Assembly (NCBI GenBank): GCA_903878115.1
Contig: CAIRGO010000026.1
Location: forward strand, 1-33,301
Direction: 5' to 3'
DNA: 33,301 nucleotides
From: Akkermansiaceae bacterium
GTDB taxonomy: Bacteria; Verrucomicrobiota; Verrucomicrobiia; Verrucomicrobiales; Akkermansiaceae
Numbering within the stretch: the stretch's first letter is position 1; each line of letters opens with the position of its first letter. This document shows positions 5,082 to 7,418 of this stretch, in pieces. A model generated the notes under the pieces. The model had not been told where the DNA came from and did no database searches. It worked only from the letters and a program-made list of their open reading frames with translations. The position numbers were made by a program, and so were the translations under genes.

Positions 5082-5762
5082 TTACGGCGCGGTGAAGCCC
5101 GCACCGCGATGAATTGCATCGATTACTTCTTGAGCACTTTCGAATTGATAATCAGGCTTCAGTGCCAGTAAGGCATCTCGATCGTGATAGCCCCAAGTAG
5201 CCGCTGCAGCTTGCGTTCCTAATGCTTGAGCGGTTTGCAGATCCATTGTGCTATCGCCTAACAATACGCACGTTGCTGCGGGTAGTTGCCATTGATCGAG
5301 AATTTCTTGCAATCCCGCAGGGTCTGGTTTGTGAGGAATCCCGATACGTTGGCCGATGATGTGATCAAACATTTCCGGGAAAAGATATTCTACAATCTCT
5401 ACGGTAAAGGCGTGTGGTTTATTAGATAACACTGCCAGTCGTGCGCCTTGCTTCTTTAGGACATCCAGCAATTCGTGGATGCCTTCATAGACATCGGTAC
5501 CCTCGTTCCAGCGTAGAGCGTAATCGTCGCGGAATAGTCGCAAGACTTCAGCACGTTCCTCCTCATTTGCCTCGGGTGTGGCGCGATGGATCAACATTAT
5601 GATGCCATCGCCGATGAAACTGCGCACTTCGGCTGACGAATAGGTGGAGCGTCCGCAAGCAGCTAAGGCGCGATTAAGGCTACCAGCAATGCCGGGAAGG
5701 GAATCAACTAAGGTGCCGTCCAGATCAAAAATCCAGCCATGCTGCTGAGGTGCTCGGCTCAC
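5082..5762 (-). CDS. gph: HAD hydrolase, phosphoglycolate phosphatase-like
   Basis: A 226-residue HAD-superfamily phosphatase starting with GTG (5760-5762). Motif I is FDLDGTLVDS (nucleophile Asp13, Asp15), motif II LSNKPH, motif III Lys in HKPDP, and motif IV GDSTMD. A four-helix cap lies between motifs I and II. Length and motifs fit the Gph/PGP subfamily, which removes phosphate from 2-phosphoglycolate arising from DNA repair or oxygenase side reactions. Related phosphatases such as pyrophosphatase PpaX share these motifs, so the substrate is not certain. It lies 24 bases downstream of the membrane protein gene at 5787 and is probably cotranscribed with it. Confidence 0.85.
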   Translation of the reverse strand: MSRAPQQHGWIFDLDGTLVDSLPGIAGSLNRALAACGRSTYSSAEVRSFIGDGIIMLIHRATPEANEEERAEVLRLFRDDYALRWNEGTDVYEGIHELLDVLKKQGARLAVLSNKPHAFTVEIVEYLFPEMFDHIIGQRIGIPHKPDPAGLQEILDQWQLPAATCVLLGDSTMDLQTAQALGTQAAAATWGYHDRDALLALKPDYQFESAQEVIDAIHRGAGFTAP

Positions 5763-5786
5763 GAGATGGTAATCAAAAAGCCGAGA

Positions 5787-6191
5787 TTAAAACCCGATTA
5801 AGGTAACGAGTTCTGAATCAGAAAATTCATTCAGGTGATCAGTTGCGACTAACAAAAGTTCTTGGCTGGCCACTTCATCGAGTTGAGAAAACACCTCTGT
5901 TTCAACTGGAGTTAATGTCGAAATTTGGGCGACCTCAGTAGATTTTGGCAAATAAAACAAAGCACATGAGATGGCGACGAGCGCCGCGGCCGCACTAGCA
6001 CGCATCCAGATGGGTAGTAATAAAGCGCGCTCCCACCAAGGTTGAGGAGACTCTTGTTGGCGAACGGCACGCAATACCCGATCAGCAAATTGTGGGCTCA
6101 CTTGCACAGCAGGTGATTTCCGTAACAAATCCCAAACGGGATCTGCGGCGAGCTCATCTTGTTTTGGTACTTGTTGATTTTTGCTGTTCAT
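5787..6191 (-). CDS. Hypothetical single-pass membrane protein
   Basis: A 134-residue protein with an N-terminal cytoplasmic part (DPVWDLLRKSPAVQVSPQFA then DRVLRAVR), one membrane helix near residues 68-88 (SAAAALVAISCALFYLP), and a short acidic C-terminal tail with repeated Glu-Leu/Asp-Glu pairs. This layout resembles small membrane proteins that accompany ECF sigma factors in Verrucomicrobiota, but no sigma factor gene is beside it. It has the best Shine-Dalgarno sequence in the window: AGGAGG seven bases before ATG, unusual against neighbouring genes that lack one. Function unknown. Confidence 0.75.
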   Translation of the reverse strand: MNSKNQQVPKQDELAADPVWDLLRKSPAVQVSPQFADRVLRAVRQQESPQPWWERALLLPIWMRASAAAALVAISCALFYLPKSTEVAQISTLTPVETEVFSQLDEVASQELLLVATDHLNEFSDSELVTLIGF

Positions 6192-6266: not shown

Positions 6267-6884
6267 TTACGCTGCTTGACGTAATAATGCAACCAGCACT
6301 CCTTGAACGATCAATTCGCGGGCGGGAATCAGGTCGGGGAAGTTTTTATTTTCCGCATGCAAAAATGGTTTCCCGTTTTCAACTAAATAGCGCTTCAATG
6401 TGGTCTCTCCATCGATCAAGGCCGCTACAACATCGCCATGGCGTGGCTCGCGAAATTCCATAATAACTACATCGCCATCGCAAATGTGAGCGTCGACCAT
6501 CGATTCGCCGCGGACTTTGAGGGCAAAAGTGCGAGCCGAGCGCTGAATGCCCAACGAACGGATATCGATCGAGAGACAGCCTTCTTTCTCCGGCGTGGTA
6601 TCGTCGCCGTAGCCTGCGGCAATACGTCCGTAGATCGGTATATCGACAATTTCTTCGCGATCCAACTCATCAGGGAACGCGACGGCGCGTGCCTTGCCTG
6701 GCAGTCGCTGAATGGCACCTTTTTTTTCTAATGCACGCAAATGACTCATCGCCGCCGTTTGACTGGCGAAGCCAAAATAATGCTGCAATTCTCGCGTCGA
6801 AGGCATGATGCCAGTCTTACGCTGAGAATTTTTCAAATAATCCAGGATCTCCTGCTGACGTTTCGTTAGTGTTTGTGAGCTCAT
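6267..6884 (-). CDS. lexA: LexA SOS repressor
   Basis: A 205-residue repressor-protease. The start at 6884 gives MSSQTLTKRQQEILDYL, matching the normal LexA N-terminus; the longer frame from 6998 would cross the operator. Residues 1-70 are a winged helix-turn-helix (STRELQHYFGF, then the recognition helix around SQTAAMSHLRALEKKG). Residues 80-205 are the S24 peptidase domain, with cleavage site Ala90-Gly91, catalytic Ser128 in GESM and Lys164 in TTLKRY. LexA represses DNA-damage genes until RecA filaments stimulate self-cleavage. A perfect LexA operator at 6896-6909 overlaps its upstream region, indicating autoregulation. Confidence 0.97.
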   Translation of the reverse strand: MSSQTLTKRQQEILDYLKNSQRKTGIMPSTRELQHYFGFASQTAAMSHLRALEKKGAIQRLPGKARAVAFPDELDREEIVDIPIYGRIAAGYGDDTTPEKEGCLSIDIRSLGIQRSARTFALKVRGESMVDAHICDGDVVIMEFREPRHGDVVAALIDGETTLKRYLVENGKPFLHAENKNFPDLIPARELIVQGVLVALLRQAA

Positions 6885-6889
6885 CTGAT

Positions 6890-6909
6890 GAACAGTGTTC
6901 GAGAGAACA
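6890..6909 (-). promoter_or_regulatory. LexA operator cluster, three half-sites
   Basis: TGTTC-GAGA-GAACA at 6896-6909 is an exact 14-base palindrome matching the TGTTC-N4-GAACA consensus known for Verrucomicrobiota LexA. A third half-site, GAACA at 6890-6894, forms an overlapping palindrome (GAACA-G-TGTTC, 6890-6900) with the first arm. The cluster lies 5-25 bases upstream of lexA and 80 bases upstream of the divergent GAF gene. Confidence 0.9.
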
Positions 6910-6952
6910 AAACACTTTCTTGCGGTATCGACAAGAAAAAAATTCAGAAAAT

Positions 6953-6980
6953 TTGCGGAGTTAAAAAATTCTGTTATGAT
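6953..6980 (+). promoter_or_regulatory. Promoter of the GAF gene
   Basis: TTGCGG (6953-6958), 16-base spacer, TATGAT (6975-6980). Only nine bases separate the -10 box from the ATG at 6990, so the mRNA would be leaderless or nearly so. Confidence 0.65.
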
Positions 6981-6989
6981 CACCGCGCG

Positions 6990-7418
6990 ATGAATCATCA
7001 GTTATGGTTAGAAGATGTGTTGAAAGAATTCCAGTGTCAGACCGGCACGATTCACCGAACTGCGCCTGACGGCCAGCATCTCAGTCTCGTTTTTCAAATC
7101 GGTGTTCCAGAAATATTGCTCGATAAAATTTCCTACATTCCCTTCGGAAAAGGAATTGCTGGAGCGGCCGCAGAAAAACGAGAGCCCATTGAGTTGTGCA
7201 ATCTGCAACAAGATCTCGGTGGCGTGGCGAGGCCTGACGCGCGAAAAACGAATGTCTCTGGCTCACTGGCTGTGCCGATCTTTTCCGCTGACAGCACGCG
7301 TGTGATCGGTGTGGTTGGTGTTGGCATGATGAGCGCGCATGATTTTACTTGTGAAGAGAAACTTCGATTGTCGCAAAAATCAATTGAGTTGCGCGAAGAA
7401 TTCGATACTCAGGGTTGA
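6990..7418 (+). CDS. GAF domain protein
   Basis: A 142-residue protein that is essentially one GAF domain. The diagnostic core is YIPFGKGIAGAAAEKREPIE, then SGSLAVPIF and VIGVVGVG. GAF domains bind small ligands, chromophores or nucleotides, or sense redox state. There is no attached output domain and no signal peptide. The start at 6990 follows from the domain boundary and from the promoter whose -10 box ends at 6980; the frame upstream would run through the promoter and LexA operator. No Shine-Dalgarno sequence. It is divergent from lexA. The ligand is unknown. Confidence 0.85.
   Translation: MNHQLWLEDVLKEFQCQTGTIHRTAPDGQHLSLVFQIGVPEILLDKISYIPFGKGIAGAAAEKREPIELCNLQQDLGGVARPDARKTNVSGSLAVPIFSADSTRVIGVVGVGMMSAHDFTCEEKLRLSQKSIELREEFDTQG

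Follow-up and report, generated by a model that had tools for sequence, protein, structure and literature searches.

The lexA gene of an Akkermansiaceae bacterium (GCA_903878115.1, contig CAIRGO010000026.1) is preceded by an exact palindrome, TGTTC-N4-GAACA, followed one base closer to the gene by a third half-site, TGTTC. Because the third half-site is conserved among relatives as strongly as the palindrome, it is probably a real second LexA contact in lexA control. That a half-site is kept at the exact spacing in three or more families, and nearly exclusively at lexA, strongly argues for selection on a multi-contact autoregulatory operator. The window referred to below is the whole stretch of DNA analyzed (33,301 nucleotides).

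The product was matched by the LexA family model (TIGR00498, 161.7 bits; cut-off, 110.95) and by PF01726 and PF00717 (both above curated cut-offs), and was related to solved LexA structures down to an E value of 1e-27. Read by eye, the translation has a putative Ala-Gly cleavage site (RIAAGYG) and likely catalytic Ser (GESM) and Lys (TLKR) motifs. The features of the region are given below; information content is from an alignment of 81 lexA promoters, whose restriction to at most three mismatches inflates absolute conservation and leaves the spacing test unaffected.

6267-6884, minus strand: lexA coding sequence, 205 amino acids, with a winged helix-turn-helix DNA-binding domain and an S24 peptidase domain
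6890-6894, minus strand: HS3, the third half-site, TGTTC, 1 base (C on the lexA strand) past HS2
6896-6900, minus strand: HS2, GAACA (TGTTC on the plus strand), 1.7-1.8 bits per column
6905-6909, minus strand: HS1, TGTTC, its first three bases forming the end of the predicted -10, 1.7-1.9 bits per column
6907-6912, minus strand: predicted lexA -10, TTTTGT, a non-consensus hexamer overlapping HS1
6929-6934, minus strand: predicted lexA -35, TTGTCG, separated from the predicted -10 by 16 bp and supported by a TTG conserved at -25 to -23 in the alignment
6953-6958 and 6975-6980, plus strand: candidate GAF gene promoter, TTGCGG and TATGAT, at least 43 bp from the operator
6990-7418, plus strand: GAF-domain gene (PF13185), divergent from lexA

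On the plus strand, the operator reads GAACA (6890-6894), G (6895), TGTTC (6896-6900), GAGA (6901-6904), and GAACA (6905-6909). The lexA strand reads TGTTC-TCTC-GAACA-C-TGTTC-ATCAG-ATG, where HS1 and HS2 form the palindrome (6896-6909) and five bases (6885-6889) separate HS3 from the ATG (6882-6884). This layout, with HS3 five bases before lexA, is as an earlier note on this DNA had described it, as is the 80-base distance from the operator (6909) to the start of the GAF gene (6990). HS2 and HS3 are separated by one base, not by the two of the Gram-positive-type GAACA-N2-TGTTC, a spacing found in 0 of 71 lexA promoters. The slot for a fourth half-site reads GATGA in the window (2/5 mismatched), and a second complete palindrome is not present there. 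A generic sigma-70 promoter scan called no lexA promoter; the placement given above is a prediction based on conserved alignment columns, and with it the start site would be expected near 6900, placing HS3 at about +7 to +11. Downstream of lexA on the same strand (5082-6191, minus), a 134-amino-acid open reading frame without a family match and a HAD phosphatase follow at short gaps and may be cotranscribed with it.

The divergent GAF gene, raised in the earlier note as a possible SOS member, is probably not a LexA target. It was rejected as a co-target because its candidate promoter does not overlap the operator and its adjacency is not conserved: it adjoins lexA in 5/10 genus members, while the operator is present in 10/10.

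Exact copies of TGTTC-N4-GAACA, the Verrucomicrobia LexA-binding motif of Erill et al. (2016, Front Mol Biosci 3:33, PMC4951493) as cited in PMC8565304 and PMC7739468, were counted across the 4.4-Mb genome (95.3% complete). Nine were found, against two for the reversed pattern; from this excess and from the genes concerned, which include lexA, recA, and others of SOS type, we take the motif to be the LexA box of the genome. The recA copy sits about 130 bp before the RecA match, and further copies precede a dinB-like Y-family polymerase (IMS domain), a DinD gene (NF008573, 344.8 bits; cut-off, 242), ssb, and an integron integrase (TIGR02249, 333.8 bits; cut-off, 265). The remainder lie at an IS91-type transposase, a short open reading frame without a family match, and another open reading frame without a match. 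A second DnaE (DnaE2) was not found in this genome, which has one PF07733 match; the dnaE2 and imuB promoters suggested in the earlier note thus provided no check of the motif, and an imuB-dnaE2 mutasome is not indicated as an SOS member here. The earlier note had read the site as a LexA operator through which lexA is autoregulated, and had made this depend on motif enrichment at recA and other SOS genes; the identity of lexA, the recA site, and the nine-to-two count agree with that reading at the level of sequence. Scanning with one mismatch allowed was uninformative (85 matches; control, 63). About 1.5 matches with up to one mismatch are expected by chance in a 33-kb window, and such a match taken alone is unremarkable; the operator owes its significance to position and conservation.

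Conservation was assessed on lexA loci collected through LexA protein homology, with the motif not used, giving 100 unique upstream stretches, of which 71 held the exact palindrome. An exact TGTTC followed at spacing 1 in 63 of these 71 and at all other spacings from 0 to 30 combined in 3; the number expected from base composition is about 0.06 for each spacing. In the 81-promoter alignment, mean mismatches were 0.15, 0.21, and 0.12 for HS1, HS2, and HS3, with neighboring lattice positions at background. Information content was 1.7 to 2.0 bits in all 15 half-site columns, 0.8 bits at the HS2-HS3 spacer base (mostly C), and 1.1 bits at the position following HS3 (A); flanking columns were mostly below 0.3 bits, the exceptions being a stretch rich in T and a TTG, at -35 to -23.

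The full 20-mer (palindrome plus HS3) is nearly confined to lexA. The third half-site was absent from the other eight palindromes of the genome (0/8), and 29 of 30 fetched 20-mer loci sat directly upstream of lexA. Seven genus members together held 42 palindromes and 8 20-mers, 7 of the latter at lexA. Genus recA promoters retain the palindrome; among recA promoters of relatives, 1 of 29 (L214) had an exact third half-site, on the opposite side. The 20-mers away from lexA stood at genes that could each plausibly belong to an SOS regulon (a dinB-like polymerase, an integron integrase, and a uracil-glycosylase-linked radical SAM gene), and this speaks for LexA as the ligand.

Several other loci with such sites were recorded. 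The radical SAM gene of G136:C44 (L186; TIGR03916, 594.7 bits) lies behind a three-half-site operator, which is in line with the SOS control of the uracil-glycosylase system reported for Verrucomicrobia (PMC8565304). The integron integrase of G000:C299 (L007, 182-1453) has an exact LexA box in its promoter (1501-1514), and that of G260:C211 (L189; both matched TIGR02249 above cut-off) has the three-half-site form, which suggests that integrons may be under SOS control in the family of the window. In several f2 genomes, complete TGTTC-N4-GAACA sites occur in pairs with about 6 bp between them (e.g., G055:C33:237737-237770 and G124:C123:17750-17783; L101 records). Near-identical repeats with TGTTCGCAAGAACA-W-TGTTC beside REP-associated-transposase-like open reading frames were seen in G103 (L190, L191, and L193) and G139 (L194) and may represent a mobile element with LexA-like sites.

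Within the order of the window, 97 of 289 genomes carried the 20-mer (reversed control, 0). Order-wide, a third TGTTC was matched about 110 times at spacing 1, against about 130 times for spacings 2 to 20 together (about 7 each). A phylum-wide draw of 387 genomes yielded 13 with the 20-mer, all in the family of the window, and sampled phylum genomes outside the order yielded none (0/342). The "phylum-type" label of the earlier note therefore suits the 14-bp motif and not the exact three-half-site form, found only in this order. Among relatives read individually, most of families f1, f2, and f6 had an exact HS3, as did some of f4, whereas it was seen at 0/6 loci of f3. Some f4 matches to the spaced pattern were not counted as half-sites, as the third TGTTC lay within ATGTTC and coincided with the lexA start codon. 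Ten genomes (99 to 100% complete) of genus g3, possibly Akkermansia, in family f1 (G011, G057-G061, G063, G067, G071, and G075), had no LexA DNA-binding domain and no 20-mer, and their palindromes about equaled control matches; lexA and its regulon appear to have been lost there.

The reading that we favor, and hold to be somewhat better than even, is a three-half-site autoregulatory operator at which one LexA dimer would occupy the palindrome and HS3 would anchor another. The HS1-HS2 dimer would cover the -10 and the start site and block lexA transcription; with the predicted -10 reaching into HS1 and HS3 placed in the leader, it would already repress alone. HS3, in the 5' leader, would hold one head of the second dimer, and the other head would rest on DNA of little conservation. 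The dimers would sit in tandem at a distance of 15 bp, occupying roughly opposite faces, and repression of lexA would be stronger or more finely tuned than that of single-palindrome SOS genes. What the sequence shows is the identity of lexA, the motif there and at recA and further SOS-type genes, and an HS3 of fixed spacing and strong conservation that is almost confined to lexA; LexA occupancy of HS3, two-dimer binding, the place of the promoter, and any influence on expression are inferred. Against two dimers, the fourth half-site is usually missing and its slot hardly rises above background (mean mismatch of 3.01; shuffled, 3.45; 81 promoters); we gave this residue little weight because it is marginal and overlaps the start-codon region. 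By analogy, the weak half-site of phage GIL01, never seen doubly occupied, and the one-operator E. coli lexA promoter, which behaves like the two-operator wild type, would also count against it. A bolder version, which we consider doubtful, is a lexA-specific one-and-a-half operator of an order, where two LexA dimers would overlap on opposite faces, give a repression threshold unlike that of the rest of the regulon, and supply inverted, everted, and direct half-site pairs for new LexA motifs.

Alternatively, a single dimer might bind either HS1-HS2 (N4) or HS2-HS3 (GAACA-N1-TGTTC) in mutually exclusive registers, much as the earlier note had envisaged in a competition of overlapping palindromes; we regard this as unlikely. 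Both pairs are inverted repeats of one half-site, the spacing in GAACA-N1-TGTTC falls a single base short of that in the Gram-positive-type GAAC-N4-GTTC, and L043, L053, and L058 keep an exact HS2-HS3 with a degenerate HS1, all of which would suit alternative registers. So would the lack of a doubly bound complex in the GIL01 study (PMC4551915). However, HS2, used in both registers, should then be the most conserved half-site, and it was exact in 75/89 where the outer half-sites were exact in 79 and 80, although these differences are small. In four Rubritalea-like promoters the operator comes directly after a TTGACA-like -35 and N1 is kept; Rubritalea-like promoters retain HS1 and HS3 with a degenerate HS2. 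L046 and L047 (two f6 genomes) have four half-sites in a 15-bp lattice, complete in these only among the promoters viewed, and in L047 the full second palindrome at 15-bp spacing accompanies a degenerate HS2. With the shared half-site not the most conserved, HS1 and HS3 kept beside a poor HS2, and a second palindrome in L046 and L047, the N4-N1 competition becomes less likely and two dimers are modestly favored.

HS3 might also be kept for another role, as an initial-transcribed-region or translation element or a site for another regulator, with LexA on HS1-HS2 only. Its position in the predicted leader, often 5 to 10 bases from the ATG, and the few 20-mer copies at non-lexA genes would fit, yet HS3 is an exact LexA half-site, and the other annotated genes with the 20-mer are of SOS type. 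Moreover, its distance to the ATG ranges from 4 to about 90 bases among relatives and its distance to the -35 varies in Rubritalea-like genomes, while the single-base spacing to HS2 is constant, which ties HS3 to the palindrome rather than to translation or the promoter and makes another role improbable. Chance or common ancestry without function would draw on the similarity of the entire promoter within the genus; with 1.7 to 2.0 bits in HS3, against mostly below 0.3 in the flanks, and its persistence across f1, f2, and f6, we give this explanation next to no weight.

Novelty is modest, because the motif is known for the phylum and Erill and colleagues reportedly described, in 2016, lexA promoters of Verrucomicrobia with tandem LexA sites, which they are reported to have proposed as a route of motif evolution. 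In papers citing the motif study, we found no description of tandem Verrucomicrobia lexA sites. The present analysis adds figures for the conservation of HS3, its fixed spacing, its near confinement to lexA, and the bounds of its distribution. HS3 offers a target at one-base-pair resolution for testing multi-contact lexA autoregulation, and a three-half-site operator is relevant to the way LexA motifs diverge from phylum to phylum.

Among known systems, the closest within the phylum is the Verrucomicrobia motif itself, as the same 14-bp palindrome stands at lexA, recA, and other SOS genes here. E. coli lexA likewise has more than one LexA site near the start site (here predicted), but there these are two complete, separate operators, whereas here a half-site abuts the palindrome; lexA promoters often have multiple LexA sites, and in E. 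coli the double operator had no detectable effect, its one-operator version behaving as wild type (PMC7440846). Acinetobacter UmuDAb, an S24-type SOS repressor, also has an overlapping two-site operator (PMC11332147), and differs as another member of the protein family with a core-plus-arms motif and a need for DdrR. In phage GIL01, dinBox1 and dinBox1b similarly combine a LexA palindrome with an adjoining single half-site, the second head being thought to rest on nonspecific DNA; LexA bound the dinBox1b half-site weakly, with no doubly bound species and a minor effect in vivo (PMC4551915). That arrangement belongs to a phage promoter with a Gram-positive motif and a weak half-site aided by gp7, whereas the half-site described here lies in a host lexA promoter and is conserved across an order.
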